Shown here: positions 2,505-38,337 of the stretch, in pieces
How the letters are laid out: every line of letters begins with the position of its first letter
Position numbering within the stretch: the first letter of the stretch is position 1
Source of the DNA: Dyadobacter tibetensis Y620-1
GTDB lineage: Bacteria > Bacteroidota > Bacteroidia > Cytophagales > Spirosomataceae
Length of the DNA: 64,000 bases
Direction: 5' to 3'
Assembly: GCF_000566685.1 (NCBI RefSeq)
Contig: NZ_AZQN01000006.1
Location: forward strand, 1-64,000
The notes under the pieces: model-generated
Databases searched by the model: none
The model's input: the letters and a program-made list of their open reading frames with translations, nothing else
What the model was told of the DNA's origin: nothing
Translations under genes and position numbers: made by a program

Positions 2505-3101
2505 ATGACCGCTCCATGGAACCTTAGCAAAAAGGATGAATTCATGCATGACTCCCATACTACAGATAGCGAACTTGTATCTTCTCTGAAAGGAGGGGAT
2601 GAACACGCCTTTGAAATGATTTACCGAAGATACTGGAAGTTTCTTTATCGCTATGCCTTTCGTCAGTTGGGTGTGAGAGAGGAAGCGGAGGAGGTAATAC
2701 ATGACCTTATGACGTCTTTATGGCAGAATAGACAGCAAACCATAATTCAAAATCTGAAAATATATCTGTTTATTTCAGCGAGAAATTTGATAAATAAATC
2801 CATTAGGTCGCAGATTAATTTAAGAAGATTCAGGGAGCATCAGATGATCCAGGGCATAATCGATCATACAGACGATGATATAACCTGGAGTGATTCTGAC
2901 TTACATACGGCAATCGAACAGGTATTGCAAAAACTGCCTACAAAAACAGCTCAAATCTTCCGAATGAGTAAACTGGAGCTGCTTCCTGTAAAAAAAATTG
3001 CCTCAAAAATGGAGCTTTCCGATAAGGCAGTTGAATATCATATTACCAAGTCTATTAAGATGCTTAGGCAGCATCTTTATCGGTTTCAATCCCATAATTA
3101 A
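2505..3101 (+). CDS. FecI-type RNA polymerase ECF sigma factor
   Basis: This sigma-70 family protein of 198 residues (or 185 from the internal Met at 2544) has region 2 at about 30-95 (HAFEMIYRRYWKFLYRYAF, then EAEEVIHDLMTSLW). Region 4 lies near the C-terminus (LPTKTAQIFRMSKLE, then VKKIASKMELSDKAVEYHI). It belongs to the Bacteroidota group that pairs with FecR-type anti-sigma factors and TonB-dependent SusC receptors. The next three genes are exactly those (FecR six bases away, then SusC and SusD), so it should switch on the downstream uptake locus when the receptor senses its ligand. Confidence 0.93.
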   Translation: MTAPWNLSKKDEFMHDSHTTDSELVSSLKGGDEHAFEMIYRRYWKFLYRYAFRQLGVREEAEEVIHDLMTSLWQNRQQTIIQNLKIYLFISARNLINKSIRSQINLRRFREHQMIQGIIDHTDDDITWSDSDLHTAIEQVLQKLPTKTAQIFRMSKLELLPVKKIASKMELSDKAVEYHITKSIKMLRQHLYRFQSHN

Positions 3102-3107
3102 GCAGTC

Positions 3108-4085
3108 ATGACACAGCAAGAATTGGACCGGATCATACAGAAATATCAAAGGGGCTGCACTAGCCCCGAAGAAGATGACTTACTCGAGGAATGGGCGAAT
3201 AGTCAACTCGAAGATGGAGAAGATATTGTATTAGCGGAGCGGAATCAAATGGAGGAGGGCTGGAGAAATATTTGCAGACAAACTGGGATGCAGAGGCCAT
3301 GGCCCGGATGGAAGATGCTAGGTATATGGTCAGGATTAGCCGCTACTGTGGCTATTGGTATGCTCTGGATTATACAATCCGATTTTATTGGAAAAAAAGT
3401 GCATCATGGAATTGAATCTATCAATATGGCTGCAAGTCCTCAAAAAGTAATTTTACCAGATGGAAGTCTGGTTTTTCTGGAACAAGGAGCTAAGGTGGTA
3501 ACTGATCAGAGTTATGGTGATTCTCTTCGAACGGTATATCTAACAGGGGAAGCCTTTTTCGATATAGTTTCTAACCCGAAACGCCCTTTCAGGGTTTATG
3601 TAGGGAATTTGGTTACAGAAGTATTAGGTACTAGTTTTCGCATCCGCCCACAGAAGGCTAATAGTACTGTTGAGGTTTCTGTTAGCACAGGGCGGGTTTC
3701 GGTTTATGATTGCGAGATAGATCAGCATTTCAAAAAAAATGGGGTGATTCTCACACCAAACCAAAAAGTAGTTTATGATACACAATATAAGACCTTAAGG
3801 TCGGACATTGTCGACGATCCTAAACCTGTGGTGCTTGATAGTCAGGATATTATTGCAGAGTACGATGAAGTATCCTTCAGTGATATTCTTAAACAAATGC
3901 AGCAGATTTATGGGGTCGAGATCGTCTTATCTAACCCCGCGTTGGGAAAATGTGCTTTTACAGGGAATTTGCGGGGGTTATCCATGTTTAAGCAACTCGA
4001 CTTGATTTGTGGTGTAGTCAATGCCCATTATGAAGTAAGAGGTATTACCATATTTATTTCCGGAACAGGATGTCCATCGGAATAG
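3108..4085 (+). CDS. FecR family anti-sigma factor
   Basis: This 325-residue inner-membrane protein has a cytoplasmic N-terminal part (1-69) that would hold the sigma factor. One membrane segment spans about 70-89 (LGIWSGLAATVAIGMLWII), followed by the periplasmic FecR domain (VILPDGSLVFLEQGAKV to LGTSFRI) and a C-terminal DUF4974-type domain (about 255-320). It starts six bases after the sigma gene, so the two are probably translated from one message. By family knowledge it receives a signal from the STN domain of the neighbouring SusC and releases the sigma factor. Confidence 0.93.
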   Translation: MTQQELDRIIQKYQRGCTSPEEDDLLEEWANSQLEDGEDIVLAERNQMEEGWRNICRQTGMQRPWPGWKMLGIWSGLAATVAIGMLWIIQSDFIGKKVHHGIESINMAASPQKVILPDGSLVFLEQGAKVVTDQSYGDSLRTVYLTGEAFFDIVSNPKRPFRVYVGNLVTEVLGTSFRIRPQKANSTVEVSVSTGRVSVYDCEIDQHFKKNGVILTPNQKVVYDTQYKTLRSDIVDDPKPVVLDSQDIIAEYDEVSFSDILKQMQQIYGVEIVLSNPALGKCAFTGNLRGLSMFKQLDLICGVVNAHYEVRGITIFISGTGCPSE

Positions 4086-4093
4086 AAAGAGTA

Positions 4094-4123
4094 AAACCGG
4101 CAATGCGTCAACATTACCGGTTT
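4094..4123 (+). terminator. Hairpin after fecR, terminator or processing site
   Basis: AAACCGG-c-AATG pairs with CATT-a-CCGGTTT around a six-base loop, giving 11 pairs and one mismatch. It lies nine bases after the FecR stop. It is not followed by a long T run, so it may be a partial terminator or an mRNA-stability element that separates the regulator genes from susC. Confidence 0.55.
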
Positions 4124-4128
4124 GTTAT

Positions 4129-4175
4129 GTGCTCAATGCAAATGGCTGTTTGCATGCCCGTGGGCTTTAGAGCAC
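4129..4175 (+). promoter_or_regulatory. Structured leader upstream of susC (possible three-way junction)
   Basis: GTGCTC (4129-4134) can pair with GAGCAC (4170-4175). Inside it, ATGCAAA/TTTGCAT (4136-4142 with 4149-4155) and GCCC/GGGC (4156-4165) form two further hairpins. The folded leader lies about 40-90 bases before the susC start. I see the pairing in the sequence; a regulatory role is inference. Confidence 0.4.
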
Positions 4176-4217
4176 ACCCGTTTTAACGTCATGTCTAACC
4201 TAAAACTATGTGAATGT

Positions 4218-7200
4218 ATGTACAATTCTTTACAGATTCCAATTTTTCTTTGGACCATTATGAAAATTTCTTTCCAACAGTTCGTCCTGCTGCTGCTCTT
4301 TTCGGGGCTTACATATGCACGAGATGCGCTAGGGCAGGAATTGTTAAAAACGAATATGACGATTATGGTGAAAGAAGTCCCCTTGAAGGCAGTATTGCAC
4401 CGTATAGAGAAAAAGGCACCCCTGCATTTTGTTTATAGCTCCAGTTCAATAAACATTCATCAGAAGGTAAGTGTCAACGTAGAAGCCAGGCCATTAGATG
4501 AAATATTAGGAACGCTTTTGACGCCGCTTTCGATAGGCTATAGAATATCAGAAAATAGAATTATGCTTTATGAATCTCAGCAAAGAATAATTCCCCCCGC
4601 AATGGACAAACTTAAAAATTCTCCACCTCAATTATTAGACGTTAAAGGAGAGGTAATTGATGAAAAAGGAATGGGGTTGCCAGGGGTTAATATTCTGCTC
4701 AAGGGGACTTCAATAGGTACTACAACCGATGCTGAGGGAGCTTTCTTTATCTCTATACCCAGAAATATCTTAGAACCTACCCTTATGATATCGTTTATCG
4801 GTTATGAAAGCCAGATGATAGCCCTAGATAATAAGGACTTCGTATCTATTCAACTCCAACCAGATGTTCAGGCCCTGGGGGAAGTAGTGGTAGTGGGCTA
4901 TGGTACACAAAAAAAGAGTGATCTGACTGGATCTGTTGCGCGGGCAAATATCGATGCCTTTCGGGAATCACCAAATGTCAATCTGGCCCAGTCCTTGCAA
5001 GGAACCGTACCAGGGCTGAATATTGGTCAGGTAACCAGTGCAGGGCAAAGTCCTGCCATATCTGTAAGGGGGAGGACAACTATTAACGGAAATCAGAATG
5101 TACTTTTGGTTGTCGATGGCATTATATTTTCGGGTAGTATGAGCGATCTTAACCCTGCAGATATAGAGTCTGTAGATGTGTTAAAAGATCCTAGTAGTAT
5201 GGCCATTTATGGGGCCCAGGCAGCAAACGGAGTTATCCTGATTACTACTAAAAGTGGGGGTAAAGAAAGTAAACCTGTATTTAATTATTCTGGAAGTTAT
5301 TCTACTCAAAATCCAAGTAATGCGCTCACGTTATTAGATAGAGAGGGGTTTTTAAAGAAGTCTGCCGATATCGATTGGAAAAAATCATTTTTGGCTCCTG
5401 ATTATACTACGCCCAATCCGGATTACACCTACTTAGATGTTGTCAACGATCCTCCTCTCAGGGAGGGGTTTGAAAATGGGTCTAATTATAACTGGTGGGA
5501 TAATACCACGGGGCCAGGTTTTATTATAAGCCACAATTTAAGTGTACGAGGTGCCGGAGAAAGGACATCCTACTTTCTTTCTGGAGGATACACCAAACAA
5601 AAGGGCTTTGTAATGAATGATAAATTTCAGCGCATTACAACCAGAATTAATATAGAAAATAAGGTCTTTGACTGGTTCAAAGTGGGGACTCAGACCTTCG
5701 CCTCCTTTTCCGATTTCTCCGGAGTGGCTCCAAACTTATATGGTATCACCATCATGTCTCCATTGGTTAAGCCTACCAACGAGGATGGCTCCTTTATCCT
5801 GAACCCGAATGGTACGAATAATGCTAACCCCTTCTTGGTAGCCCAAGCTGCTGATTATGATAAAAGAAATAGTTTGTTCGGGAATGTTTACGCTAACATA
5901 GATCTCCCATTTATACGCGGACTTTCTTATCGTTTAAATTATGGACATACCTTGGCATGGACCCGTCATTTTGGAAGTAATCCTTACTCGAATGGAGCAG
6001 CAGGTGAGGCATTTAAGATCAATAGCAATTCTTATGACTGGACATTGGATCATATTTTAAACTATAAAAAAAATATTGGTGAGAATCATAAGCTGGATTT
6101 AACAGTAGTTGCGGGCCGCAGAGAACGTAATTATGAAAATACGAATGCCACAGGATCAAACTTCACCAATTTGCGATTAAAATATCATGATTTGAGCTTA
6201 GGAGCTATTAAAAATATATCTTCTTCGGCCTGGGATGAAAGTTATATTTACCAGACGGGAAGGATCAATTATGAGTTTAAGTATAAGTATCTGCTTACTG
6301 CTACTTTAAGACGAGACGGTTTTTCGGGCTTTGCCGAAAATGCTAAAACGGCTCTTTTCCCTTCAGTGGGGTTAGGGTGGGTGCTCAGCGAAGAATCGTT
6401 TATGCGTTCACCTGCCATCAATCTCCTCAAATTAAGAAGTTCTTACGGCACCAATGGTAATTTAGTGAACCGATATGCATCTTTAGCCCGATTGAACATG
6501 TATCCCGCCTATGTATTTGGAGATGGTGGTGGAACCGAGTTTGGGCAAATGGTAACGACCTTGGCTAATCCCGACCTCTCCTGGGAAACCACCACAGGTT
6601 TCAACTTCGGTCTGGACTTTGCCATTTTGAAAAATCGAGTTTCAGGAAATCTGGATTTCTATTCTACTAAAACGAATGACCTGATCTTTGATGTCAATAT
6701 CCCTGAGGTAACAGGTTTTAATAAAATAACCTCTAATGTAGGGAAAATAGCCAATCGAGGAGCGGAACTGGTTTTGAATGGTAAATTGATAAGCAAAAGG
6801 GAATTTAGTTGGGATATTAATTTCAATATCGCCTCTAACCAGAATAAAGTAGTTTCGCTATTAGGACAGGATAATGATGGGGATGGTAAAGAGGACGACT
6901 TGGTGGCAAGTGGATTGTTTATTGGTCAACCCTTGGGTGCTATTTATGATTATGAGTCGGAGGGGATCATTCAGCTAGGAGATAGCGCACCCTCTGGATT
7001 CTTTGTGGGTACGCATAAAATTATAGATCAAAATAACGATGGCTTTTATGATGCCAATGACCGGGTAATTCGAGGTAAGAAAGAAGCCGCTTATAATTTT
7101 GGTATCTTAAATGAATTGAAGTATCGGAATTTTAATTTTCGATTTTTCATAAATTCTATTCAAGGCGGTCGTCAGGGCTATTTGGGGTTAAATATGCCTA

Positions 7201-7559
7201 CCAGTTTGGGCATAGGAGATAATATCAGACGGAATAATCTTTGGAAGGAATTCGATTACTGGACACCCTCCAATCCCAATGCGCGCTACAGAGGGCTAGA
7301 CCAGGGGCCGGCTACGGAATATAATGTGTATGGCAATAGAAGTTTTGTACGACTTCAGGATATTACTCTATCCTATAACATAGACAAAGAAAAGTTAGAA
7401 GCGCTGCATATACAGGATATAAAATTGTTTGTGAGTGCAAAAAATTTAGCTACCTGGACTAATTGGGTCGGCTGGGATCCGGAAACCGGTAGCGGGCTGG
7501 ATGCCAATGGACGACCTGTCATGCGTGCATGGACCTTGGGTATTAACCTCCGATTTTAA
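4218..7559 (+). CDS. SusC/RagA family TonB-linked outer-membrane protein with STN domain
   Basis: From the start at 4218 (MYNSLQIP) this is 1113 residues; a Met at 4260 (MKISFQQF) would place the signal peptide at the very N-terminus. In order: signal sequence, STN signalling domain (about 47-118), carboxypeptidase-regulatory-like domain (about 141-220; KGTSIGTTTDAEG), the SusC motif EVVVVGYGTQKK (about 222-233), plug, and a 22-strand-type barrel ending in the aromatic residue of INLRF. It imports oligosaccharides through the outer membrane with TonB energy, and the STN domain signals to the upstream FecR. SusD and a sulfatase follow, so the ligand is probably a sulfated glycan. Confidence 0.95.
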   Translation: MYNSLQIPIFLWTIMKISFQQFVLLLLFSGLTYARDALGQELLKTNMTIMVKEVPLKAVLHRIEKKAPLHFVYSSSSINIHQKVSVNVEARPLDEILGTLLTPLSIGYRISENRIMLYESQQRIIPPAMDKLKNSPPQLLDVKGEVIDEKGMGLPGVNILLKGTSIGTTTDAEGAFFISIPRNILEPTLMISFIGYESQMIALDNKDFVSIQLQPDVQALGEVVVVGYGTQKKSDLTGSVARANIDAFRESPNVNLAQSLQGTVPGLNIGQVTSAGQSPAISVRGRTTINGNQNVLLVVDGIIFSGSMSDLNPADIESVDVLKDPSSMAIYGAQAANGVILITTKSGGKESKPVFNYSGSYSTQNPSNALTLLDREGFLKKSADIDWKKSFLAPDYTTPNPDYTYLDVVNDPPLREGFENGSNYNWWDNTTGPGFIISHNLSVRGAGERTSYFLSGGYTKQKGFVMNDKFQRITTRINIENKVFDWFKVGTQTFASFSDFSGVAPNLYGITIMSPLVKPTNEDGSFILNPNGTNNANPFLVAQAADYDKRNSLFGNVYANIDLPFIRGLSYRLNYGHTLAWTRHFGSNPYSNGAAGEAFKINSNSYDWTLDHILNYKKNIGENHKLDLTVVAGRRERNYENTNATGSNFTNLRLKYHDLSLGAIKNISSSAWDESYIYQTGRINYEFKYKYLLTATLRRDGFSGFAENAKTALFPSVGLGWVLSEESFMRSPAINLLKLRSSYGTNGNLVNRYASLARLNMYPAYVFGDGGGTEFGQMVTTLANPDLSWETTTGFNFGLDFAILKNRVSGNLDFYSTKTNDLIFDVNIPEVTGFNKITSNVGKIANRGAELVLNGKLISKREFSWDINFNIASNQNKVVSLLGQDNDGDGKEDDLVASGLFIGQPLGAIYDYESEGIIQLGDSAPSGFFVGTHKIIDQNNDGFYDANDRVIRGKKEAAYNFGILNELKYRNFNFRFFINSIQGGRQGYLGLNMPTSLGIGDNIRRNNLWKEFDYWTPSNPNARYRGLDQGPATEYNVYGNRSFVRLQDITLSYNIDKEKLEALHIQDIKLFVSAKNLATWTNWVGWDPETGSGLDANGRPVMRAWTLGINLRF

Positions 7560-7579
7560 ATTCCTAAACCCTTAGAATT

Positions 7580-9283
7580 ATGAAAATTTCAAGCCTTATA
7601 CGCATCCTGATTTTATTACCAGTATTCTGGATAAGTAGCTGTAATGAAGAAGCTATATTAAAGGAAATTCCACTGGATTTTGCAAGTCCTGAAAATGCGT
7701 TCGTTACTAAAGAAGACTTTGATTTGGCAGTGAATGCACTGTACGATCTGACCAGAGGGATCCTGTCGGATGGCGAGCACAGACCACTCGATTATATTTA
7801 TGGGACAGATTTGGGGTATAATGCGGCACAACAACTCAACGAGCGATTCGGAAGTTATCCTGCGACGCTGACTCCCAACTCGGAGCAGGCACGTTTTCAC
7901 TGGCAACAGTATTACAAAATTATTTCGAGTGCTAATATTATTCTGAACAGATTGGAAACTTCAAGTTTGGGTCAAGATCAGAAAGTATTGATACAAGGGA
8001 AATCCCGACTATTCCGAGGCCTTGCTTACCGAAACCTCACACATCTTTACGGTGGGGTACCCCTTGAACTGGAAGAGGTGACCACTGATAAAAAAAATTA
8101 TGTGCGGGCTTCCAGGGAGGAAAGTTATCTGCAAGCCGTCGAAGATCTGGCCTTTGCAGCAGAAAATCTTCCTGAAATAGATAAGGTGAAAGATGGGGAA
8201 ATAACCAATTTAGCAGCCTTACATTTATTGGCAGAAACGTACCTAGCGCTGCAACAATTTGATAAAGCGGTACAGGCCGCTAGTCTTGTAATTGACGATC
8301 CGAATACGGCATTAATGACTTCTCGGTTTGGATCCCGGAGTACTGAGCCGGGAGATGTCTACTGGGATTTGTTTCGACGTTCTAATCAGAACCGCAGCGC
8401 AGGAAATAAAGAAGGAATTTGGGTTTTTCAATATGAGGTAGATTTGCTGGGAGGTGTCATAAAATCGTCGGCTAAGGAAGGGCCTCAGCTGGAGCGGGAT
8501 TGTGCGCCACGACCCTATAGTTTCCCTTATAAGGATCCAGCTGGTATTACTCCTTTTTTATCCTTGGGAGTATCCGACTACACAGGAGGCCGGGGCATTG
8601 GGCGATTCCGGGGGACAGACCATTTTGTCTATGGGATCTGGACGTTAGATTGGAAGGATATGCGAAATTCCGAATACAATTTCGTAAGAGATGTGAAGTT
8701 TAATAATCCAGCTTCGGAATGGTATGGGAGATGGATTTCCGAATTCGATATTTTTAAGCAGCGCACCGACGACACCATACGCAATTTTTATCCCTATCAG
8801 TCTAAAGTAACCACTCCGGGCAACCATCCCTTAGAGCTGTTTGTAGACCCGATATTAAAGACCTTAAATGCCTCTTCTGCCGGGACCACTTATACCGATC
8901 AATATTTTATTCGACTGGCGGAAACTTATTTAATCCGTGCAGAGGCCTATCTGGGAATGGGGAACACGAGCTTGGCAGCAGAGGATATAAACATTATTCG
9001 AAAAAGGGCCCAGGCTAAACTGGTAACGCCCGCACAGGTGTCGATCTCTTTTATTCTTGACGAAAGAATGCGGGAGCTAGGAGTAGAAGAAAAGCGAAGG
9101 TTGACTTTAAATAGACTGGGGTTGCTTTACGATCGAACGAGCAAATACTGTAACGGACATCCTACAGCAGCCAAATTCGGGGTTGATGTGGCTCCTTATC
9201 ATAATGTTTTTCCAATACCCTATTCTGAAATAGAAAGAAATACAGGCGCTATCCTCGAACAGAATCCCGGTTATGCCAACTAA
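7580..9283 (+). CDS. RagB/SusD family nutrient-uptake outer-membrane lipoprotein
   Basis: This 567-residue lipoprotein has a signal peptide with lipobox ISSC (Cys21). The SusD fold shows helical TPR-like repeats in the N-terminal half (LFRGLAYRNLTHLYGGVPL is the diagnostic SusD stretch). The C-terminal RagB region has the typical YLIRAEAYLGMGN and NIIRKRA motifs. It caps the SusC barrel encoded 20 bases upstream and binds the glycan at the cell surface. The sulfatase gene follows about 10 bases later, or overlaps if its first Met is used, so the three genes should be co-transcribed. Confidence 0.95.
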   Translation: MKISSLIRILILLPVFWISSCNEEAILKEIPLDFASPENAFVTKEDFDLAVNALYDLTRGILSDGEHRPLDYIYGTDLGYNAAQQLNERFGSYPATLTPNSEQARFHWQQYYKIISSANIILNRLETSSLGQDQKVLIQGKSRLFRGLAYRNLTHLYGGVPLELEEVTTDKKNYVRASREESYLQAVEDLAFAAENLPEIDKVKDGEITNLAALHLLAETYLALQQFDKAVQAASLVIDDPNTALMTSRFGSRSTEPGDVYWDLFRRSNQNRSAGNKEGIWVFQYEVDLLGGVIKSSAKEGPQLERDCAPRPYSFPYKDPAGITPFLSLGVSDYTGGRGIGRFRGTDHFVYGIWTLDWKDMRNSEYNFVRDVKFNNPASEWYGRWISEFDIFKQRTDDTIRNFYPYQSKVTTPGNHPLELFVDPILKTLNASSAGTTYTDQYFIRLAETYLIRAEAYLGMGNTSLAAEDINIIRKRAQAKLVTPAQVSISFILDERMRELGVEEKRRLTLNRLGLLYDRTSKYCNGHPTAAKFGVDVAPYHNVFPIPYSEIERNTGAILEQNPGYAN

Positions 9284-9293
9284 TTCAAGTAAT

Positions 9294-10829
9294 ATGCATT
9301 TTATACTCCCCAAATTTATTCTATCGGCAGCGTTGTTGGTCGGTGCATTAGGCTTTGCTTTTGTGGGTTCCAACACCACTCATCAACCCGGTAAACGTCC
9401 GAATATTCTCTTCGTGATTTCTGATGACCAGTCATTCGCCCATGCCTCAGCCTATGGTTTTAAAGCAATCAGTACCCCTGCTTTCGACAGGGTGGCTCGG
9501 GAAGGAGTATTGTTTACCAATGCCTTTGTGGCTTCTCCTGGGTGTAGCCCCTCACGGGCAGCTATTTTGACTGGGAAAAATTGTTGGCAAGTTGGCCCCG
9601 CAGGTACGCATGCGAGCACCTTTCCTCGAGACCTTCAAATATTTACGGATGTACTGCAGGATGCGGGGTATTTTGTGGGGCTTACGGGCAAGGGATGGGG
9701 ACCGGGAAAGGTTCTTGAGAGGGAGCACAATCCGGCTGGCAAACAATATGACCGCCATACCTTGACTGCCCCTAAAGGCATCAGTAATAATGACTATGCG
9801 GCGAATTTTCAGGACTTCTTCGAACAGAAATCTCCCAATCAACCTTTTTGTTTTTGGATGGGTGCCCAGGAGCCTCACCGTCGCTACCCCACTGGCATCG
9901 GTCAGCGTAGCGGAATGAAGCTTTCCGATGTTCAAGTCCCCAGCTTCTTGCCCGATCAGGATGAGGTAAAGTCCGATATGCTCGACTATCTATACGAAAT
10001 TCAATGGTACGATAACCATTTGGGAAAAATACTTTCATGGCTGGAAAAACAGGGAGAGCTAGAAAATACCCTCGTGGTGGTTACCTCGGATAATGGTATG
10101 CCCTTTCCCAGGGCAAAAGCGAACTGTTACGAATATGGAGTTCATGTGCCCCTAGCCATTCGGTGGGGGGCAAAGGTAAAGGGGGGGAGGGTCGTCAACG
10201 ATCTGGTGAGCAGCCTGGATTTTGCTCCCACTTTTTTGGATGCCGCTGGGATTAGCCAAAAGACCATGAAGCTTGAAGGTAGAAGTCTTATGAATATATT
10301 AAAAAGTAATCAGTCGGGGACTGTCGATAAAAAACGTACAGCCGTGTTTGCCTCACGTGAACGACATTCGTCCTCTCGATGGAATAATCATGGCTATCCT
10401 CAGCGTACCATCAGAAAGGCTCAGTTTCAGTACATCTGGAATGTGCATCCGGAACGTTGGCCTGCCGGGGCTCCCCAAAAATATGAAGAGGATGGTAGCC
10501 TCGGGCCCATGCATGGTGCTTATCACGATATTGATGATTTTGTGGAATCTCCTCTTAATATTTTAAGAGACCAGGCAGATATAGCCCCGTATTTTCATAT
10601 GGCAGTAGACAAGCGCCCAGCTGAGGAGTTATATGACATTCAGAACGATCCCGGATGCTTAAAGAATTTGGCTCAGGATCCGACTTTTGAAGGGATTAGG
10701 CGACAAATGGCTAAAGAGTTACAGGAATACTTGGTGAAAACACAGGACCCACGTACCACCTCCAACGGCGAAATTTTTGAGTCTTACATTCGATATAGCC
10801 CCATTAGAAAGTTTCCAAAGCCAGAATAA
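9294..10829 (+). CDS. Sulfatase, heparan N-sulfatase-like (S1 family)
   Basis: This is a type I sulfatase of 511 residues from the Met at 9294, which gives a clean signal peptide; an earlier ATG at 9273 overlaps susD by 11 bases. The signature CSPSRAAILTG is intact, with Cys84 expected to be converted to formylglycine. The calcium-binding Asp pair (VISDDQS, 44-45) is present, and further metal and active-site segments (GAQEPHRRYP, TSDNGMPFPRAK) resemble N-sulfoglucosamine sulfohydrolase (S1_8-like). It would remove sulfate from a glycan in the periplasm. It is the only degradative enzyme directly linked to this SusCD pair. N-sulfate specificity is inferred from resemblance and not certain. 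Confidence 0.88.
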   Translation: MHFILPKFILSAALLVGALGFAFVGSNTTHQPGKRPNILFVISDDQSFAHASAYGFKAISTPAFDRVAREGVLFTNAFVASPGCSPSRAAILTGKNCWQVGPAGTHASTFPRDLQIFTDVLQDAGYFVGLTGKGWGPGKVLEREHNPAGKQYDRHTLTAPKGISNNDYAANFQDFFEQKSPNQPFCFWMGAQEPHRRYPTGIGQRSGMKLSDVQVPSFLPDQDEVKSDMLDYLYEIQWYDNHLGKILSWLEKQGELENTLVVVTSDNGMPFPRAKANCYEYGVHVPLAIRWGAKVKGGRVVNDLVSSLDFAPTFLDAAGISQKTMKLEGRSLMNILKSNQSGTVDKKRTAVFASRERHSSSRWNNHGYPQRTIRKAQFQYIWNVHPERWPAGAPQKYEEDGSLGPMHGAYHDIDDFVESPLNILRDQADIAPYFHMAVDKRPAEELYDIQNDPGCLKNLAQDPTFEGIRRQMAKELQEYLVKTQDPRTTSNGEIFESYIRYSPIRKFPKPE

Positions 10830-10885: not shown

Positions 10886-11716
10886 TTAATGCCTCTGTCT
10901 ATATTTCATAGGGGAGAGCCCATGAAGTTCACTGAACTTTTTATGGAAAAACGGTAAAGACTCGTAGCCGCAGGCAAAACCTATCTGCGATACAGAGGCA
11001 TCACTGTCCAACAGCATGCGGGTGGCGATGTTGATGCGGTACTCGTTAAGAAAAGCAAAAAAGGGGCGGCCCATCATCTTAGTAAAAAATCGGGAAAAGG
11101 ATTGTTCGGACATGCTGACTAAATCTGCCAGCTCATTCAGATAAATTTTCCGATGAAAATTTTGCTCTACAAATTCATGAATCTTTGCCATACGGTTGCC
11201 ATATTCTGACGGTAAATCATTGATAAAGCTGGCTTCGGATAGCGTCTGATAGGGGCACTCTGTAAGGGTTATCAGTATTTTTAATAAAAACAGATAGCGG
11301 AAATGACCATCCAGCTCAGGTAGCCTTTTGACCATTTTGATAACGGGTTCTGTATGATTATGGTCAAATATAATCCCTTTCGCGGCCGCCTTAAGCAGGT
11401 CGTGAATAGGGGCAAGTTCAGGTACTTTCGGATAGGTAGCCAGGTCCCACTGCACTACAAACGACTGCGCATCATGCTTCTGATTGCTGCTATTTTTCCA
11501 ACAATGGGGGAGGTTCGAGCGTAGTAGTACCAATTCTCCCGGACGATAGGGGCCCACATAGTCGCCAATAAATTTGGTGCCCAAGCTCTCCTCTATGTAG
11601 GTCAACTCGTGTTGAGGATGAAAATGCCAGGGTGTTTCAAAATTCCTTTTTTTATAATGAAAGCTTACAATGCTCCTCTGGTCGCCAACGTATATGGGTT
11701 CTAAAATTGGTTTCAT
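10886..11716 (-). CDS. AraC family transcriptional regulator with cupin sensor
   Basis: This 276-residue protein has an N-terminal cupin-like domain (FHYKKRNFETPWHFHPQHEL with its HxH pair; RPGELVLLRSNLPHCW). The C-terminal AraC DNA-binding domain (about 175-276) carries two helix-turn-helix units (LNELADLVSMSEQSFSRFF and VSQIGFACGYESLPFFHKKF). It is encoded divergently from the P450 operon, with a 203-base shared intergenic region, so the P450, ferredoxin, reductase and dehydrogenase genes are its most likely targets. Cupin-type AraC sensors commonly bind sugars; the ligand here is unknown. Confidence 0.9.
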   Translation of the reverse strand: MKPILEPIYVGDQRSIVSFHYKKRNFETPWHFHPQHELTYIEESLGTKFIGDYVGPYRPGELVLLRSNLPHCWKNSSNQKHDAQSFVVQWDLATYPKVPELAPIHDLLKAAAKGIIFDHNHTEPVIKMVKRLPELDGHFRYLFLLKILITLTECPYQTLSEASFINDLPSEYGNRMAKIHEFVEQNFHRKIYLNELADLVSMSEQSFSRFFTKMMGRPFFAFLNEYRINIATRMLLDSDASVSQIGFACGYESLPFFHKKFSELHGLSPMKYRQRH

Positions 11717-11842
11717 ATGGCTTGCTCCCCATTTATCCGGGTCCTGGATTCTATCTCTTGTCGAGGATTTATATTCTATTTTGTAGTAAAAGGTTAAAAT
11801 TAAAGAAAAATTGAACAGAATTGTTTATAAAATGATCAAGTC

Positions 11843-11852
11843 TACATATGTA
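11843..11852. promoter_or_regulatory. Palindrome in the araC-P450 intergenic region
   Basis: TACATATGTA is a perfect 10-base palindrome between the divergent AraC and P450 genes, and a related ATACATAC occurs about 45 bases further on. It is a possible regulator site, but short AT-rich palindromes arise by chance. Confidence 0.25.
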
Positions 11853-11919
11853 TTGGGAATATTTAAGCTTCATCTTTGTATGGTGAAAATAAAATCATAT
11901 ACATACAAATTGGTACATT

Positions 11920-13080
11920 ATGAAGAATAGCGTGCTTCCGGACCCTTTTGCTAGTGCAAGAGAAAAGAGGGGTTTAGGTGAAATGGTCGACCAGAACGAT
12001 CCAGTGACGATGGTACTTCGGCATAAGGATGTGAGAAAATGTGCGCATCAATATAAGACCTTCAGTTCCGAAGATATACCGGGCAGGATTGTAGTTCCTT
12101 CGGAGGTAAATATCAGGGAAACGCGTCAGCTTCCCTTTGAACTGGATCCTCCCCGACATGGAACTTACCGGCAGCTACTCGAAGCATGGTTTAAGCGCCC
12201 TCTGCAAGCCGATTATCAGTCCATACTCAGGAAACAGATCGAGGAACTAATTGGTCAGGCTTTACTTCAGTCGCAGGTTGAAGTAGTGAGCGAGCTGGCT
12301 CTACCTATTCAGTCGCATGCCCTTACTTTGCTTCTCAATACCTCCCATGAAGAAGCACAGAAATGGATATCCTGGGGCACACATGTATTTCGTAGTGAAG
12401 GAGAGGCTTTGGACGGTGACAAGGCCATGGTTTTATATGATTATATAGATGAGCAGATCGAAAGGGCTGTTCTTCACCCAGGCCAGGATTTATATTCCGT
12501 ACTTCTGGCATCTGAAATAGATGGTCGAAAAATGACTAAGGAAGAGGTCAAGGGAGTTCTCGTTCTGACCTTTGCTGGGGGCCGTGATACGGTAATCAAT
12601 GCCGTTACCAATGCTATCGCTTATTTAGCCGACCATCCGGGCGCTTTAGAGCGCTTCCGCCAGGAACCTGAAATTATAGGTCGAGCGGTGGAAGAAATGA
12701 TTCGTTATTTCTCCCCTTTGACTCATATGGGCCGGGTCGTGAAAGAGGATACGCAAGTATGCGAACATGCTATAAAGGCAGATAGCCGTATTTCCCTGTG
12801 CTGGGCCTCGGCCAACAGGGATCCTGCTGTATTCGAAAATCCCGACGAAATTGTTCTGGACCGGAAGATCAACCCCCATGTTGGTTTCGGATTTAGCCAT
12901 CATAATTGTCTTGGAGCTACGCATGCCCGACAAATCATGAAAATTCTGCTTTCGACCTTGGCCGAGAAAGTGAGTACCATTCAAATACTGAAATGTAAAG
13001 AAAATATAGAGATGCTCAGCGACTTTCAAAGGAAGGTGGGTTACGATACTATTCAAGTGAAATTTAACGCAATAAAATAA
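11920..13080 (+). CDS. Cytochrome P450, candidate sugar O-demethylase
   Basis: This soluble bacterial P450 of 386 residues has all the class hallmarks: I-helix oxygen-binding motif AGGRDT (219-224), the ExxR pair (Glu259, Arg262 in EEMIR), and the heme loop FGFSHHNCLG with ligand Cys330. Its ferredoxin and ferredoxin reductase are encoded 10 and 328 bases downstream, so the electron chain is complete, and a Zn-alcohol dehydrogenase follows. This gene set, in a Bacteroidota polysaccharide-use setting, matches the P450 systems known to demethylate 6-O-methyl-D-galactose from red-algal porphyran (CYP236A type). The substrate here is inferred from context. No agarase or porphyranase gene is in the window, so another O-methylated sugar is possible. 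Confidence 0.88.
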   Translation: MKNSVLPDPFASAREKRGLGEMVDQNDPVTMVLRHKDVRKCAHQYKTFSSEDIPGRIVVPSEVNIRETRQLPFELDPPRHGTYRQLLEAWFKRPLQADYQSILRKQIEELIGQALLQSQVEVVSELALPIQSHALTLLLNTSHEEAQKWISWGTHVFRSEGEALDGDKAMVLYDYIDEQIERAVLHPGQDLYSVLLASEIDGRKMTKEEVKGVLVLTFAGGRDTVINAVTNAIAYLADHPGALERFRQEPEIIGRAVEEMIRYFSPLTHMGRVVKEDTQVCEHAIKADSRISLCWASANRDPAVFENPDEIVLDRKINPHVGFGFSHHNCLGATHARQIMKILLSTLAEKVSTIQILKCKENIEMLSDFQRKVGYDTIQVKFNAIK

Positions 13081-13090
13081 TTCTAGCACT

Positions 13091-13399
13091 ATGGCTCAAA
13101 TAACGTTTGTTACAAGCGACAACGATAGTATTACGCTTGAAGGTACCTCTGGATCGGTAATGTCCCTGGCGGTAGGCCATGGGGTAAAGGGAATAGATGG
13201 CGATTGTGGAGGAGTTTGTTCCTGCGCTACCTGCCATGTTTTCGTAGCTCCCGGCGATCTGGAAAAAACCGGTCCGGCCTCCGAAATAGAGACGGATATG
13301 TTGGAACTTGACGATAATGCTAACGAATTCAGTCGGCTTTGCTGCCAGATAGAAATAAGCGACGCAATAGATGGAATTGTATTAACGGTAGCCAAATAA
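13091..13399 (+). CDS. 2Fe-2S ferredoxin, adrenodoxin/putidaredoxin type
   Basis: This 102-residue ferredoxin has the vertebrate-type cluster pattern C-x5-C-x2-C plus a distant Cys: Cys39, Cys45 and Cys48 in CGGVCSCATC, and Cys85 in SRLCCQI. Two extra cysteines (43 and 84) lie next to ligands. It should carry single electrons from the FAD reductase encoded nine bases downstream to the P450 encoded just upstream. It is cytoplasmic, as no signal peptide is seen. Confidence 0.93.
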   Translation: MAQITFVTSDNDSITLEGTSGSVMSLAVGHGVKGIDGDCGGVCSCATCHVFVAPGDLEKTGPASEIETDMLELDDNANEFSRLCCQIEISDAIDGIVLTVAK

Positions 13400-13408
13400 C
13401 ATTTAAAA

Positions 13409-14659
13409 ATGTCAGCAACAGAGTCAAATGGTGGTAGATGTGTGGTGATTGGGGCGAGCCATGCCGGGGTAAACTTCGCCTTTGCCCTCCGCAAGGAAGG
13501 TTGGGAAGGTGAAATTCAGCTCTTCGATGCCGATCCAATGCGCCCATACCACCGACCACCACTTTCTAAAGCCTATTTGGCTGGCACAGACAAAATCGAG
13601 AAGAACCTGTTAAAGGCTGAGGAAAGCTATGAAAGAGAGAAGATTGATCTGCATTTGGGCATCAAGGTAGCAGCTATTAAACCTGGAGAAAGGACTATTC
13701 AGCTCGACGACGGGCGTAGGGTCGCCTACGACAAACTGGTACTTGCTACTGGTGCTAGGCCGCTGCTGCCTCCTATTGTTGGCATCGAAGCATGTAGCCG
13801 TGTATCAGTGTTAAGAACGGCTAGTGATGTCGAACATATCCGGAATAAAGTTAAGGAGCAAGTTTCGAGCAGGGTGGTCATTATTGGTGGTGGTTATATT
13901 GGTTTAGAGACTGCTTCTTCTCTAAGTAAAATGGGGGCCTCGGTAGTTGTCTTGGAAAGAGAGGAACGGATCCTGGCGCGGGTTACTGCACCCTTTATGT
14001 CCGATTATTTTCAACGGCTTCATGCAGCGCATGGCGTTTCCGTTCTGACTTCTAAGAACGTGGTATCTATTGGCTCGAGTAGGGAATGCGGGATAGTAAT
14101 CTGTGATGATGGGTCTCAGTACCCAGCCGAATTAGTGATAGTAGGAGTGGGCATCCAGGTTAATCAGGAGTTGGCAGAGCAGGCGGGCCTCATTGTAGAA
14201 AATGGAATTCGAGTCGATGGAAGGGCTCAGACAAGCGACCCGGCCATTTATGCTATTGGCGATTGTACCAATCATTTCAACCTGCATTATCAACGTTTTG
14301 TGCGGCTGGAGTCGGTTCAGAACGCTGTTGATCAGGCTAAAGTCGCCGCCGCAGCCATAGCAGGGAAGCAGCCAGTTTATGACGCCCTTCCTTGGTTTTG
14401 GTCCGATCAGTTCGACACGAAACTTCAGATCGCTGGTTTGTCGGCGGGATATAATAGGATCTTGACCAGGATAGAGCATGCGCATTGTTTCTCTGTCTGG
14501 TACTTTAAAGACGATACGCTGTTAGCAGTTGATGCGGTAAATCATGCGAAATCCTATGTGGTGGGAACTAAGTTGTTAAAGGATAAGCAGAAGGTAGATG
14601 TAGCCAGGTTAACCGATCGGAATATCGACCTTAAAGTGGCTAACCTCATTCTGGAATAG
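13409..14659 (+). CDS. FAD-dependent NAD(P)H:ferredoxin reductase
   Basis: This 416-residue reductase resembles putidaredoxin reductase and the rubredoxin reductase group. It has an N-terminal FAD-binding fold (VVIGASHAGVNFAFAL, then RPPLSKAYL), a central NAD(P)H-binding fold (VVIIGGGYIGLETASSLSK), the second FAD motif IYAIGDC, and a C-terminal reductase domain (PWFWSDQFDTKLQIAG). It passes electrons from NAD(P)H to the neighbouring ferredoxin for the P450. The gene order P450-ferredoxin-reductase with spacings near 10 bases indicates a single operon. Confidence 0.93.
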   Translation: MSATESNGGRCVVIGASHAGVNFAFALRKEGWEGEIQLFDADPMRPYHRPPLSKAYLAGTDKIEKNLLKAEESYEREKIDLHLGIKVAAIKPGERTIQLDDGRRVAYDKLVLATGARPLLPPIVGIEACSRVSVLRTASDVEHIRNKVKEQVSSRVVIIGGGYIGLETASSLSKMGASVVVLEREERILARVTAPFMSDYFQRLHAAHGVSVLTSKNVVSIGSSRECGIVICDDGSQYPAELVIVGVGIQVNQELAEQAGLIVENGIRVDGRAQTSDPAIYAIGDCTNHFNLHYQRFVRLESVQNAVDQAKVAAAAIAGKQPVYDALPWFWSDQFDTKLQIAGLSAGYNRILTRIEHAHCFSVWYFKDDTLLAVDAVNHAKSYVVGTKLLKDKQKVDVARLTDRNIDLKVANLILE

Positions 14660-14693
14660 TGTAGAGCAATAATATTTTTAAAAAAGAGAATTT

Positions 14694-15812
14694 ATGTCCA
14701 TACGGTCAAGAAGTGCCGTTGCCACGGGAGCGGGTAATTTTGTAATTGAAGAAGTATTCCTGAGCGATCCCAGATCCGACGAGGTGATTGTGAAAATGAA
14801 GGCGGCGGGTCTTTGCCATACCGATTACGATTCCTTGTCCTGGGGAAAGCCTATAGTGATGGGCCATGAAGGGGCGGGGATAATCGAAAGGGTAGGATCA
14901 GCAGTAGTCAATCTCAAACCGGGCGACCAAGTAATTCTTAACTGGGCAACACCCTGTTTACAGTGTTTTCAGTGTCAGGAAGGCAATCAGCATATCTGTG
15001 AGCGCCACTCTCCTGTGGTGGCCGGTGGTAACGGGCATACCCCTGGCCATGCTCATCTAACGAGTACCCGATGGAATGGAAACCCAATAGAGCGTTCTTT
15101 TAACCTCGGGACTTTAAGTGAATATACCTTGGTAAAAGAATCGGCAGTGGTGAAAGTAAATGAGGAAAATCTGAATTTTTCTGCTGCAAGCATCATCAGC
15201 TGTGGAGTTATGACGGGTTTTGGGTCTGTAGTTAATGCCGCCAGACTGATAGCAGGAAGTTCGGCGGTGGTATTGGGCTGTGGTGGTGTAGGCCTTAGCG
15301 TTATCAATGCCTGCCAGTTAGCCGGGGCAGCCCGGATAGTAGCGGTAGATATCAATCCTAACAAATTGGAAATGGCAAAGCAATTCGGCGCTACCGAGAG
15401 CATTCTTGCTCATAAAAAAGACATCGGATTAAACCAGGTGGCGCTACAGATAAAGGAACGCTTCGGGGGAAGAGGGGCAGATTATGCCTTCGAATGCACT
15501 GCTATACCTGCTCTTGGGGCAGCTCCATTGGCCATGATTCGAAATGCTGGAACAGCCATTCAGGTAAGTGGCATAGAAGAGGAAATAACAATCGATATGC
15601 GCCTCTTCGAATGGGACAAGATCTATATGAATCCCCTCTACGGGAAATGCCGTCCCCAAATAGATTTTCCAAAAATAATGGCACTCTATAGGAAGGGTGA
15701 TCTTAAACTGGATAAAATGATAACCCAACAATATACCCTCGACGACCTGCCGCAGGCCTTCGAGGATATGTTGTCAGGTAGAAATGCGAAGGGTGTAATC
15801 GTATTTGCCTAG
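14694..15812 (+). CDS. Zinc-dependent alcohol dehydrogenase (MDR family)
   Basis: This 372-residue medium-chain dehydrogenase has catalytic zinc ligands Cys41 (GLCHTD) and His58-Glu59 (GHEG). The four structural-zinc cysteines are Cys88, Cys91, Cys94 and Cys102, and an NAD-binding fold (VVLGCGGVGLSV, with acidic Asp in VAVDIN) favours NAD. It resembles class III / aryl-alcohol dehydrogenases. It starts 34 bases after the ferredoxin reductase. In known P450 sugar-demethylation clusters a Zn-alcohol dehydrogenase accompanies the P450 and is thought to handle formaldehyde or a sugar aldehyde, and the same role is likely here. Confidence 0.9.
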   Translation: MSIRSRSAVATGAGNFVIEEVFLSDPRSDEVIVKMKAAGLCHTDYDSLSWGKPIVMGHEGAGIIERVGSAVVNLKPGDQVILNWATPCLQCFQCQEGNQHICERHSPVVAGGNGHTPGHAHLTSTRWNGNPIERSFNLGTLSEYTLVKESAVVKVNEENLNFSAASIISCGVMTGFGSVVNAARLIAGSSAVVLGCGGVGLSVINACQLAGAARIVAVDINPNKLEMAKQFGATESILAHKKDIGLNQVALQIKERFGGRGADYAFECTAIPALGAAPLAMIRNAGTAIQVSGIEEEITIDMRLFEWDKIYMNPLYGKCRPQIDFPKIMALYRKGDLKLDKMITQQYTLDDLPQAFEDMLSGRNAKGVIVFA

Positions 15813-15839: not shown

Positions 15840-17435
15840 CTACCGCTCCGGTGCGAAACGAAGGGCATTTACATCAAACTTTTCTTTCAGTATCCAGGCC
15901 TTACGCTCATATTCTTCAGGGTCCAGCCAGGAGTATTCCGGGTTAAGGATGGTATCGGGGACGTTAGGGCAGTGCTGGGGCACCATTACATCAAAGACGG
16001 GATGTTTGTCAAATTGGACATGTTCGAGACTATTATCTAACACTGCATGAAGTAGTGCCCGGGTGTAGGCCAGTGGAATACGGTTGCCTATGCCATAAGG
16101 CCCGCTTATCCAGCCAGTATTTAAAAGCCATACTTGAGCTCCGCTCTGTTCCAGTCTTTCACCTAGCATCTGGGTATAAGTCTTAGGGTGTAAGGGCAGG
16201 AACGCTTCTCCAAAGCAGGCAGAAAATGTTGCTACGGGTTGATTGATGCCCATTTCTGTGCCTGCAAGTTTGGCTGTATATCCGGTTTGGAAATAATACA
16301 TGGCCTGTTCGGTGGTCAGTTTGGACAAAGGGGGCAGTACGCCGAAAGCATCGGCCGTTAAAAAGAATATATGATCCGGAACGGGTCCGACAGAAGGATG
16401 GCAGGCATTGGAGATAAAATGAATGGGATAAGCCGTCCTCGTATTTTCTGTGACGGAAATATTGCTAAAATCCACCTTATTGGTATCAGGGAAAAAGCGG
16501 GTGTTCTCCAGGATACTCTGCTCTCTGATTGCAGCAAATATTTCAGGCTCCTGCTCCATGGTCAGATTTACTACTTTGGCATAGCAACCTCCTTCAAAAT
16601 TGAAGATGCCCTCCGCGGACCAGCCGTGCTCATCATCGCCTATCAGCTCTCGACTAGGGTCTGCAGACAGGGTGGTTTTCCCGGTTCCAGAAAGACCAAA
16701 AAATAAAGCCGTACTAGGTTGGCCATTCAACGAGTTGCCGATATTGGCCGAACAGTGCATTGGCAGTATCTGGTAGTCTACGGGGAGAATAAAGTTCATG
16801 ACCGTGAATATGGCCTTCTTGATCTCTCCAGCATATCCAGAACCTCCTATTAGAATTTTTTTGTTAGAAAAATCAATGATCGTAAAATTGCCTTGACGTG
16901 TACCATCCGTTTTCGCTTCGGCCTGGAATTCAGGGATGCAAAGTATGGTCCATTGAGGAGAGAAGTCTGCCAGTTCATCCTCCTCAGTCCTAATAAACAT
17001 GTGATGACAAAACAACCCCTGCCAAGCTTGGGTAGTGGTGGCCATTATAGGCTGCCTGAACTGCTCATCGGCACCTGCATAGGCATATCGGGTATAGACT
17101 GTCTTTCCGTTAAGATAGTCCTGCATTTTATGATAGATCTTGGCTACATTCGATGGGGTAATGGGATTGTTGATTTCACCCCAATGTACGAGATCCTCGG
17201 TGAGCTCGTCTCGTACTATAAACTTGTCTTTCGGAGAACGGCCTGTAAAGGTTCCGGTGTCACACATAAGCGCATGAGCGTCGGTAAGTACTCCTTCGCC
17301 TTCTTTTAAAGCCAGTTCTACAAGCTCTTCAGGAGTAGATTGCAGATAAATCGTTTTGCATGAGTTTAAGCCATTTTGCTCAAGGGGAGCATGGGCAATA
17401 TTTTCGTGCGGTTTGATGATGGTAGGATGTTGCAT
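15840..17435 (-). CDS. pckA: Phosphoenolpyruvate carboxykinase (ATP)
   Basis: The protein is full length (531 residues). It carries the family P-loop GLSGTGKT (247-254), the kinase-2 / metal region LIGDDEHGW (264-272), the oxaloacetate-site segment GRSPKDKF (65-72) and the kinase-1a region FGACFGEAFLPLHP typical of the ATP-type enzyme. It converts oxaloacetate and ATP to phosphoenolpyruvate and CO2 in the first step of gluconeogenesis, in the cytoplasm. The gene is convergent with the alcohol dehydrogenase, with only 27 bases between the stops. It is a housekeeping gene with no evident link to the neighbouring sugar genes. Confidence 0.97.
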   Translation of the reverse strand: MQHPTIIKPHENIAHAPLEQNGLNSCKTIYLQSTPEELVELALKEGEGVLTDAHALMCDTGTFTGRSPKDKFIVRDELTEDLVHWGEINNPITPSNVAKIYHKMQDYLNGKTVYTRYAYAGADEQFRQPIMATTTQAWQGLFCHHMFIRTEEDELADFSPQWTILCIPEFQAEAKTDGTRQGNFTIIDFSNKKILIGGSGYAGEIKKAIFTVMNFILPVDYQILPMHCSANIGNSLNGQPSTALFFGLSGTGKTTLSADPSRELIGDDEHGWSAEGIFNFEGGCYAKVVNLTMEQEPEIFAAIREQSILENTRFFPDTNKVDFSNISVTENTRTAYPIHFISNACHPSVGPVPDHIFFLTADAFGVLPPLSKLTTEQAMYYFQTGYTAKLAGTEMGINQPVATFSACFGEAFLPLHPKTYTQMLGERLEQSGAQVWLLNTGWISGPYGIGNRIPLAYTRALLHAVLDNSLEHVQFDKHPVFDVMVPQHCPNVPDTILNPEYSWLDPEEYERKAWILKEKFDVNALRFAPER

Positions 17436-34557: not shown

Positions 34558-34617
34558 AAATGAATTTAATGCCTTATGCAACCATTTAAACCAATATTCA
34601 CTTTTTTCAGCCATAGG

Positions 34618-37600: not shown

Positions 37601-38337
37601 CGGAAAAGGAAGACTTTAAAAACAATAGTCTAAGCAAGACCTTTGAGGTTAAAATGCTGGATCAGCTAGCAGACTTCGCATTGGAAAGGAGTTTGAGGGG
37701 GTATGCCTCTTATGCTACCGGAGCAGAAATTCTTGCCGTTCTGAAAAAAGCAGGAAACCTTGATCCCGCTGCAAGAAATGCCGTTTTAAGAGGAATCCTA
37801 AATAGCTGGAATCCAAAGCGTACCGAAAAGGTGAGTCGGGAAGATCAAAAATGGTTGTCCGAATCTAAAGACCTGGTTACGGCCGACCTTGCCGGCAAGT
37901 ATACCACCTTCTTAGAATCTTTCGGTATCAAAGAAATGGCAGAGGAAGATCCTGATATCCAGATTGTGAAAATCAAAGCCATACGAGAGGAGATGAAATA
38001 CGATGTAACAGACTTTAAGGCCGTAGCGGGTAAGACGGTCGAGATCGTCTTTGAAAACCCCGATGCCATGCAGCATAATATCGTTTTTGGTAAACCCAAC
38101 ACCATGGAGGTTATAGGCACCGCTGCAGATAAGATGATCACGGATGCCAAAGGTGCTGAGAAAAATTACGTTCCAAATATTCCTCAAATTATAGCAGCTT
38201 CTCCCTTGGTGAATCCGGGACAAACCTATCGCTTACGATTTGTTGTGCCAGACCAGCCCGGAGACTATCCGTTTGTATGCACATTTCCGGGGCATTGGCG
38301 CCTTATGACAGGTGTGATGCGTGTGGTGAAAGAGTAA
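34618..38337 (+). CDS. Multidomain lipoprotein: ThuA, PVC-type dehydrogenase propeller, HEAT, CARDB-like, cupredoxin
   Basis: From the Met at 34618 this is 1239 residues with a lipoprotein signal (LLGC, Cys17). Domains in order: ThuA-like (about 37-250; GKGFIPVHCASYCF, RVFYTAYGHDERTW), a PVC-type membrane-bound dehydrogenase propeller (about 297-660; FTLEVFAHEPDVMHPIAM), HEAT-like repeats (about 667-860), a CARDB-like beta domain (about 887-1009), and a blue-copper domain (about 1115-1239) with all four ligands: His1153, Cys1221, His1226, Met1230. ThuA acts on keto-sugars, the propeller resembles sugar dehydrogenases, and the copper domain could accept the electrons, so a periplasmic sugar-oxidation machine is a reasonable inference. 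A second ATG at 34576 is less likely because it would precede the signal peptide. Confidence 0.88.
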   Translation: MKNTLIYIFLGFILLGCAHQSGQQSLNATKGKAQARRLEILFLGDTLHHHKPAERLPQLMAALGPKGINFTYTERLEDLNSETLEKYDALMLYANWDEIGQNQADALLSFVASGKGFIPVHCASYCFRNNEAIVKLIGGQFWRHTWDTIQPVWKQKEHQAIAGVLPFKTVDETYLHTKLQPDNIVLTERIVTQDQIKDKPGLENEPYTWVRTHGKGRVFYTAYGHDERTWSNPGFQALLEKGILWSVGEEARKAHENLNLQPFAYRPANLPNYEQRPGPQLQQLPLSPEESVKHIQVPVDFTLEVFAHEPDVMHPIAMTWDEKGRLFVLITKDYPNERKDTGGSDYILICEDTDKDGKADKFTRFADGLSVPTGLVFANGGLIVSQAPHMLFLQDTDGDDKADVKRILFSGFGTRDTHAGPSNLHYGFDNWVYGSVGYSGFKGKVGKSDSLDFGQALFRFKPDGSDMEIVAKTSNNTWGLGFNESGDLFGSTANNAHGWFSAIPNRYFGKSTVDNGSRSTDTHKDIQPITEKVRQVDVFGGFTAAAGHNFYTARAYPKEYWNRVAFVSEPTGHLLHRNIMVKKGTDFEDKLGFNLLAGADEWVSPVFAEVGPDGAVWVADWYSFIIQHNPTPPGMENGEGNAYETDLRDYTHGRLYRIAYKNAPPYAPLSLSKSRPAELVKTLENTNMLWRRHAQRMLVERGNRDVVPALIALIQNKKVDELGLNTAAIHALWTLEGLQAISDPSVLSVVKEALRHPSADVRKTALKVLPKTLDSGRTLLALNMLQDQSPSVVLNTLLAFIDIPLTNEIGKAVLKLMETYPDAQDRWMPDAFAAILNAHDGALRDQYLSERKGKPGLAMSLAKELSVDHSKMNHGKATNEAITAQGTAELAITDIRIEPSEPFIREYARVVVEIANQGSVAVKKGVVPVVNVNVRSRSINTNYISKKLDQGLAPGEKILLTEGNNGPWRSTFGFASDEAGPITVSANIDLDNVVPEKEDFKNNSLSKTFEVKMLDQLADFALERSLRGYASYATGAEILAVLKKAGNLDPAARNAVLRGILNSWNPKRTEKVSREDQKWLSESKDLVTADLAGKYTTFLESFGIKEMAEEDPDIQIVKIKAIREEMKYDVTDFKAVAGKTVEIVFENPDAMQHNIVFGKPNTMEVIGTAADKMITDAKGAEKNYVPNIPQIIAASPLVNPGQTYRLRFVVPDQPGDYPFVCTFPGHWRLMTGVMRVVKE

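Follow-up and report, generated by a model that had tools for sequence, protein, structure and literature searches.

The 64,000-nucleotide stretch of Dyadobacter tibetensis Y620-1 analysed here (contig NZ_AZQN01000006.1, positions 1 to 64,000; hereafter the window) contains a cassette of five genes at positions 10886-15812, in which a cupin-type AraC-family regulator is divergent from a cytochrome P450, a ferredoxin, a ferredoxin reductase and a zinc-dependent alcohol dehydrogenase (ADH). With high confidence, this cassette can be assigned to the oxidative demethylation of 6-O-methyl-D-galactose. Furthermore, it very probably represents the class I P450 system already known to act on this sugar, which would here be derived from an agar/porphyran-type galactan, the polysaccharide being degraded by the products of unlinked genes and not by those of the adjacent locus. 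The new points are modest, namely a free-standing cassette without the usual esterase and an operator-like motif that is found upstream of the P450 and ADH units in relatives.

Open reading frames (ORFs) and Pfam domains bore out the gene order, the coordinates and the divergent cupin-AraC gene given in the preliminary description of this DNA, and the haem-ligand cysteine of the P450 is residue 330, as had been stated there (Table 1). All five frames are open and intact, with intergenic gaps of 203 bases between the AraC and P450 genes and of 10, 9 and 34 bases between P450 and ferredoxin, ferredoxin and reductase, and reductase and ADH, respectively. A search of the whole assembly with PF00067 (5.3 Mb in 33 contigs, with a completeness score of 100%) did not find a second P450.

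The assignment is carried by the two enzymes with close relatives among the solved structures. The P450 matches PDB entry 6g5o with 657 bits over residues 1-385, where 287 of the 385 positions are identical (75%), and identity above 55% is the usual guide to a P450 subfamily. The database title of 6g5o is only 'Cytochrome P450', and we take this entry to be the 6-O-methyl-D-galactose demethylase of Zobellia; the label of this P450 type is presumably CYP236A. A P450 of the terpene, steroid or fatty-acid type was ruled out, since the other solved P450s score far lower, with 159 bits for the next-best. The haem cysteine, the I-helix and ExxR are the motifs of P450s, and in an alignment with 33 relatives the window P450 departs from none of the 127 invariant columns. 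These 33 sequences comprise the P450s of 20 named loci described below, those of 12 other genomes and 6g5o, five of the 12 being duplicates of named ones; in five genomes of the order, the last 200 P450 residues are identical to those of named Flammeovirga loci. The ADH is similarly close to ZoADH (8h2b), with 694 bits and 292 of 371 residues identical (79%), and to FoADH (8h2a), with 618 bits, while the third-best solved match reaches 196 bits. The identity to 6g5o and 8h2b, the haem cysteine and the unbroken invariant columns strongly support the earlier proposal of an oxidative 6-O-methyl-galactose demethylation set.

The function of this set is known from work on Zobellia. PMC10033563 (Brott et al. 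2023), which cites a Zobellia P450 structure, reports that P450, ferredoxin and reductase turn 6-O-methyl-D-galactose into galactose and formaldehyde, that a Zobellia P450 knockout is unable to use this sugar and that knocking out the ADH leads to poor growth on it. In the text of that paper available to us, the natural substrate of the ADH is given as unidentified, and formaldehyde detoxification with known thiols was tested and excluded. The window cassette has the same gene set as Zobellia galactanivorans and Formosa agariphila, with the full-length P450 identity given above and the tested invariant residues kept, but it differs in belonging to the Cytophagales, in lying outside any galactan locus and in having no adjacent esterase. 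The window ADH likewise stands behind the P450 trio, as do FoADH and ZoADH (PMC10033563).

We infer the electron flow, the substrate and the regulation of the window system as follows. Electrons would pass from NAD(P)H through the FAD reductase and the 2Fe-2S ferredoxin to the P450, which would hydroxylate the O-methyl group, with the hemiacetal then collapsing to D-galactose and formaldehyde. The zinc-dependent ADH would be the auxiliary enzyme required for growth on 6-O-methyl-D-galactose, and the cupin-AraC protein would activate the P450 operon in the presence of this sugar or of a product. The methylated sugar itself would come from a red algal galactan of the agar/porphyran type, cut by enzymes that are encoded at about 8-49 kb of contig C1 and at 172 kb of contig C9 of the same assembly.

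Table 1. Features of the demethylation cassette and of the neighbouring unit (window positions).
Feature	Position	Strand	Basis and remarks
AraC-family regulator, HTH_18 + Cupin_2	10886..11716	-	Pfam; divergent from P450
Putative AraC operator, promoter region between the divergent AraC and P450 genes	11814..11841	+	motif search; tentative
Cytochrome P450 monooxygenase, predicted 6-O-methyl-D-galactose demethylase	11920..13080	+	Pfam p450; identity to 6g5o; invariant columns
[2Fe-2S] ferredoxin, presumed P450 electron donor	13091..13399	+	Pfam Fer2; homologues in relatives' loci
FAD/NAD(P)H ferredoxin reductase	13409..14659	+	Pfam Pyr_redox_2 + Reductase_C; homologues in relatives' loci
Zn-dependent alcohol dehydrogenase, FoADH/ZoADH type	14694..15812	+	Pfam ADH_N + ADH_zinc_N; matches to 8h2b/8h2a
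S1-type sulfatase, Sulfatase + SGSH_C	9273..10829	+	Pfam; best PDB match 9bb9; probably outside the system
Sigma-factor-like ORF, FecR, SusC, SusD	2505..9283	+	Pfam/NCBIfam (FecR, SusC, SusD); probably outside the system

The preliminary description had found neither agarase nor porphyranase genes. This holds for the window, where Pfam was run on 20 of the encoded proteins and not on every ORF, but not for the genome. The C9 gene (171828-172769) encodes a beta-agarase B homologue with 425 bits to 1o4z and 422 to 4atf. On C1 lie a GH86 gene, whose product carries BPA_C and Porphyrn_cat_1 domains and scores 345 bits against the GH86A porphyranase 4aw7, and two GH16 porphyranase-like genes at about 26.1-27.0 and 47.7-48.9 kb (273 and 172 bits to the beta-porphyranase 4awd, respectively). 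A GH117-family gene of the same contig has 678 bits to 4u6d, which is titled conserved hypothetical protein, and 197 bits to the 3,6-anhydro-alpha-L-galactosidase 3p2n. The C1 galactan genes also include a GH2 gene, an alpha-L-fucosidase-family gene, an aldehyde dehydrogenase gene and an enolase-superfamily gene. Family and neighbourhood point to a 3,6-anhydro-galactonate cycloisomerase for the latter, whose best NCBIfam model is talarate/galactarate dehydratase (239 bits, with a cut-off of 500); NCBIfam gave no specific name for the enolase-superfamily, GH86 and GH117 genes, the GH117 query being a partial frame. Sulfatase-family matches in the genome number 44, some of them fragmentary, and 43 are above the cut-off. 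As a separate observation, the agarase B homologue (L056, 1829-2773) is solitary, with no SusC or SusD recognised by eye nearby, and it has the same gene context in the genus-mate G064 (L155).

These genes also bear on the natural source of the sugar. A variant of the above reading, which does not exclude it, would have the same monosaccharide come from methylated agar rather than from porphyran. The agarase B homologue and the GH117-family gene are consistent with such a source, and a review states that P450s of this kind act on the 6-O-methyl-D-galactose of both agarose and porphyran (PMC8360166, in the part available). However, the GH86 and GH16 porphyranase-like genes are present as well, so that both sources are plausible and agar as the source in place of porphyran is possible but on the doubtful side.

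Across 390 Cytophagales genomes, the presence of the P450 tracks the agar/porphyran gene set. The cut-offs were E <= 1e-90 for the P450, E <= 1e-20 for the GH16 agarase homologue, with several matches being partial, and E <= 1e-110 for the enolase-superfamily gene, and the same 390 genomes were assumed to be drawn in each search. The P450 is present in 13 genomes, all of which have the enolase-superfamily gene (18/390 overall), while 12 of the 13 have the GH16 agarase homologue and 12 have GH86 (each 15/390 overall). Fisher P values for the P450 with the agarase, GH86 and the enolase-superfamily gene were 3e-19, 3e-19 and 1e-20, respectively, although these overstate the significance because seven of the 13 positives share a genus label. 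Genomes with a marker and without the P450 (five for the enolase-superfamily gene, three for the agarase and three for GH86) are to be expected, because the demethylation set is an accessory.

The adjacent SusCD-sulfatase unit, in which the ORF at 2505-3101 was read by eye as an extracytoplasmic function (ECF) sigma factor, had led to the suggestion of a different sulfated glycan as the substrate. Its sulfatase had been called heparan-N-sulfatase-like, which stands at the domain level (Sulfatase and SGSH_C); the best solved match, however, is the S1_8A sulfatase 9bb9 with 148 bits, against 117 bits for the N-sulphoglucosamine sulphohydrolase 4mhx. In the available part of PMC12549532, S1_8A is a galactose-2-sulfate monosaccharide sulfatase in the lambda-carrageenan pathway, the equation of 9bb9 with this enzyme being based on the shared name and on one mention of 9BB9. 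The likeness is distant, concerns the neighbouring sulfatase alone and not the cassette, and would leave the substrate of that sulfatase unfixed.

A role of the cassette in serving this adjacent locus, with a carrageenan-like or another methylated sulfated galactan as the substrate, would fit its position between the sulfatase and PEPCK genes, and the S1_8A likeness means that a galactan link is not absurd (PMC12549532, in part). Nevertheless, this role seems very unlikely, as the linkage between the unit and the cassette is not conserved in relatives. In G064, a sulfatase homologue (82% identical) on contig C16 has PEPCK directly behind it, and the AraC2, isomerase-like and GH125 genes known from the window come next; no cassette, SusC or SusD match was found in this 20-kb stretch. 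The P450 cassette of G064 lies on a different contig (C1), well inside it, and the 60 kb around it hold no match to the window SusC or SusD. In the genus-mate G033, SusC (63%), SusD (72%) and sulfatase (62%) occur together without the cassette, and the genome has no P450 match. Sulfatase homologues (E <= 1e-80) were found in 14 of the 48 genomes of the genus, that of the window included. Furthermore, the unit is convergent with the cassette AraC gene, the SusC-like proteins in the loci of the named relatives are merely 27-31% identical to the window SusC, and the presence of the P450 follows the agar/porphyran genes. A SusC-SusD pair upstream of the P450 in two of these loci (L002 and L021) was considered as a counterpart of the window unit and rejected, since SusC is 27-28% and SusD 23-26% identical and the sulfatase is unmatched there.

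Since both units occur alone, the simplest explanation of the present adjacency is that an insertion or a rearrangement took place between the sulfatase and PEPCK genes. It looks incidental, and the SusCD-sulfatase locus is probably a chance neighbour that gives no clue to a new substrate. With galactan genes elsewhere in the genome, a P450 that tracks the agar/porphyran set and units that are separate in genus-mates, the idea of a different sulfated glycan was not borne out, and the case cautions that a substrate cannot always be read from the nearest SusCD/sulfatase locus. With regard to the gene on the other side of the cassette, the PEPCK (15840-17435) is 69% identical to its syntenic counterpart in G064, where the flanking genes have 58-89% (sulfatase 82%, AraC2 84%); this value is low for a housekeeping enzyme, and the gene is possibly a replaced copy.

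A scan of genome contigs yielded 20 named loci with a P450 that is 59-69% identical to that of the window, in which genes were counted within the DNA fetched around each. They belong to Flavobacteriaceae, Flammeovirgaceae, Agaribacillus, Alteromonadaceae and one genome labelled Cytophaga. The reductase is present in all 20 loci (44-63% identical) and the ferredoxin in 19 (51-74%), the miss being in L013, where the ORF filter retained an ORF of the opposite strand. ADH and esterase were each found in 18 loci and an AraC gene of the cassette type in 14 (40-59%). In G064, the identities are 69% for AraC, 78% for the P450, 83% for the ferredoxin, 64% for the reductase and 80% for the ADH; this genome was found by the order-wide search and lies outside the 36 genus-mates in which no P450 match was obtained at E <= 1e-60. 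The P450 tree pairs the window with G064 (99/96) and groups Seonamhaeicola and Tamlana, both Flavobacteriaceae, with G096 of the Cytophagales (94/92), Cellulophaga joining this group at 96/94; its deeper forks are weak, and the bootstrap had not converged. This mixing of Flavobacteriaceae and Cytophagales suggests horizontal movement of the P450. The spread of the demethylation set as such is already known, since PMC12316285, in the part available, reports that among aerobic Pseudomonadota, Bacteroidota and Planctomycetota it was located in agarose loci. The same paper names an active-site glycine as a mark of 6-O-methyl-beta-porphyranases.

Between the window and G064, the proportions of nonsynonymous (pN) and synonymous (pS) differences, with silent sites near saturation, are 0.15 and 0.79 for the P450, 0.11 and 0.71 for the ferredoxin and 0.13 and 0.82 for the ADH, the three genes covered, and the cassette genes look to be under purifying selection. 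That the cassette was acquired but is silent or decaying and has no function here, for which the longer branch of the window P450 (0.26, against 0.13 for its sister G064) could speak, is highly improbable given the open frames, the retention of every invariant residue and a pN far below pS in these three genes.

Several observations weigh against the assignment to an agar/porphyran-type galactan. The galactan genes and the cassette are on separate contigs, so that their functional link is one of genome content and not of synteny, and the GH16 gene at C1:47.7-48.9 kb also matches kappa-carrageenase weakly (42 bits, below the cut-off). The search with PF00722 listed two GH16 places and overlooked both porphyranase-like GH16 genes that were found later, which makes the negatives of the genome searches soft. 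The co-occurrence counts are phylogenetically non-independent (the shared genus label is g50, and many are Flammeovirga), and the P450-positive genome G324 has no match to the GH16 agarase or to GH86. The esterase seen in most named loci is absent from the window cassette. Lastly, the search of the window genome for the RuMP (ribulose monophosphate) hexulose-phosphate synthase, a candidate formaldehyde sink, gave only a 28-bit partial match; this enzyme reaches the cut-off in one of the nine genomes searched (G064) and has 147 bits, below the cut-off, in G324.

With regard to G324, the enolase-superfamily gene is retained (C1:92 kb) about 28 kb from the P450 (C1:120 kb), the cassette includes an esterase, and two GH2-like genes, one recognised by Pfam and the other by eye, lie about 13-21 kb from the P450. 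This genome (L114, L153-L154), which is of the same family and combines cassette, enolase-superfamily and GH2-like genes, is possibly that of an oligosaccharide scavenger. As for the esterase, the nearest homologue in the window genome is 45% identical and unlinked (C1:271861), and the G064 cassette likewise has no linked esterase. In both genus members, the esterase homologue (L172, 9820-10668; L173, 8444-9268) stands beside genes read by eye as DJ-1-like, iron-ADH-like, OsmC-like and TetR-like, a neighbourhood that is a candidate aldehyde-stress cluster.

The cupin-AraC protein is probably the cassette's own regulator. An unsupervised search of 11 AraC/P450 intergenic regions gave a 28-base motif of about ACAGAATAGNTTA, followed by a short spacer and an A-rich end. 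Its total of 301 bits compares with 198-211 in eight shuffled controls, a contrast that is inflated because the controls, which were simple letter shuffles, had three restarts against 25 and several of the input regions are closely related. When left out in turn, nine of ten sites were found again as the best in their region, the failure being L004. Among 13 held-out upstream regions chosen by the analyst, ten had a shuffle P <= 0.015 and one 0.045, while two were negative (0.15 and 0.59); the five Flammeovirga ADH/AraC regions in this set are non-independent, and the regions upstream of the P450 of L003, L008, L009, L011, L012 and L017 were left out. In relatives, the motif lies upstream not only of the P450 but also of ADH-esterase units with an orientation of their own, which suggests that both may form one regulon.

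The window site is tentative, since it scores only 10.7 bits when left out of training. A scan of the window and of stretches of its own genome (673157 bases) had this site as the best at 19.1, a score that includes it in training, its left-out value being below those of 14 other listed matches (10.9-16.2); no convincing further regulon member was found in these sequences. A search of the open-access literature did not find the AraC regulator or its operator described, and the main text of PMC10033563, its supplement aside, does not contain 'AraC' or 'regulator'. If bound by AraC, the motif would define the regulon and help to explain the need for the ADH on 6-O-methyl-galactose.

With some reservation, it can be proposed that the P450, its redox partners, the ADH, the cupin-AraC regulator and the operator may constitute an autonomous, horizontally moving module that would confer the use of methyl-galactose without depending on polysaccharide loci, and that the ADH is placed in the demethylation regulon by the operator common to its unit and the P450. 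In such a case, any galactan degrader could gain the use of methyl-galactose, and there would be a handle on the substrate of the ADH. The window shows the known demethylation set in a genus of the Cytophagales, where it stands apart from every galactan locus that was recognised.

Among the other genes of the window, two adjacent ORFs of about 1410 amino acids (24149-28378 and 28785-33029) are similar in sequence and were read by eye as secreted metalloproteases and a tandem duplicate. Additionally, two large DUF7133 proteins are encoded at 34576-38337 and 53774-56899; ThuA, HEAT and copper-binding domains occur in one of them and cytochrome c in the other.

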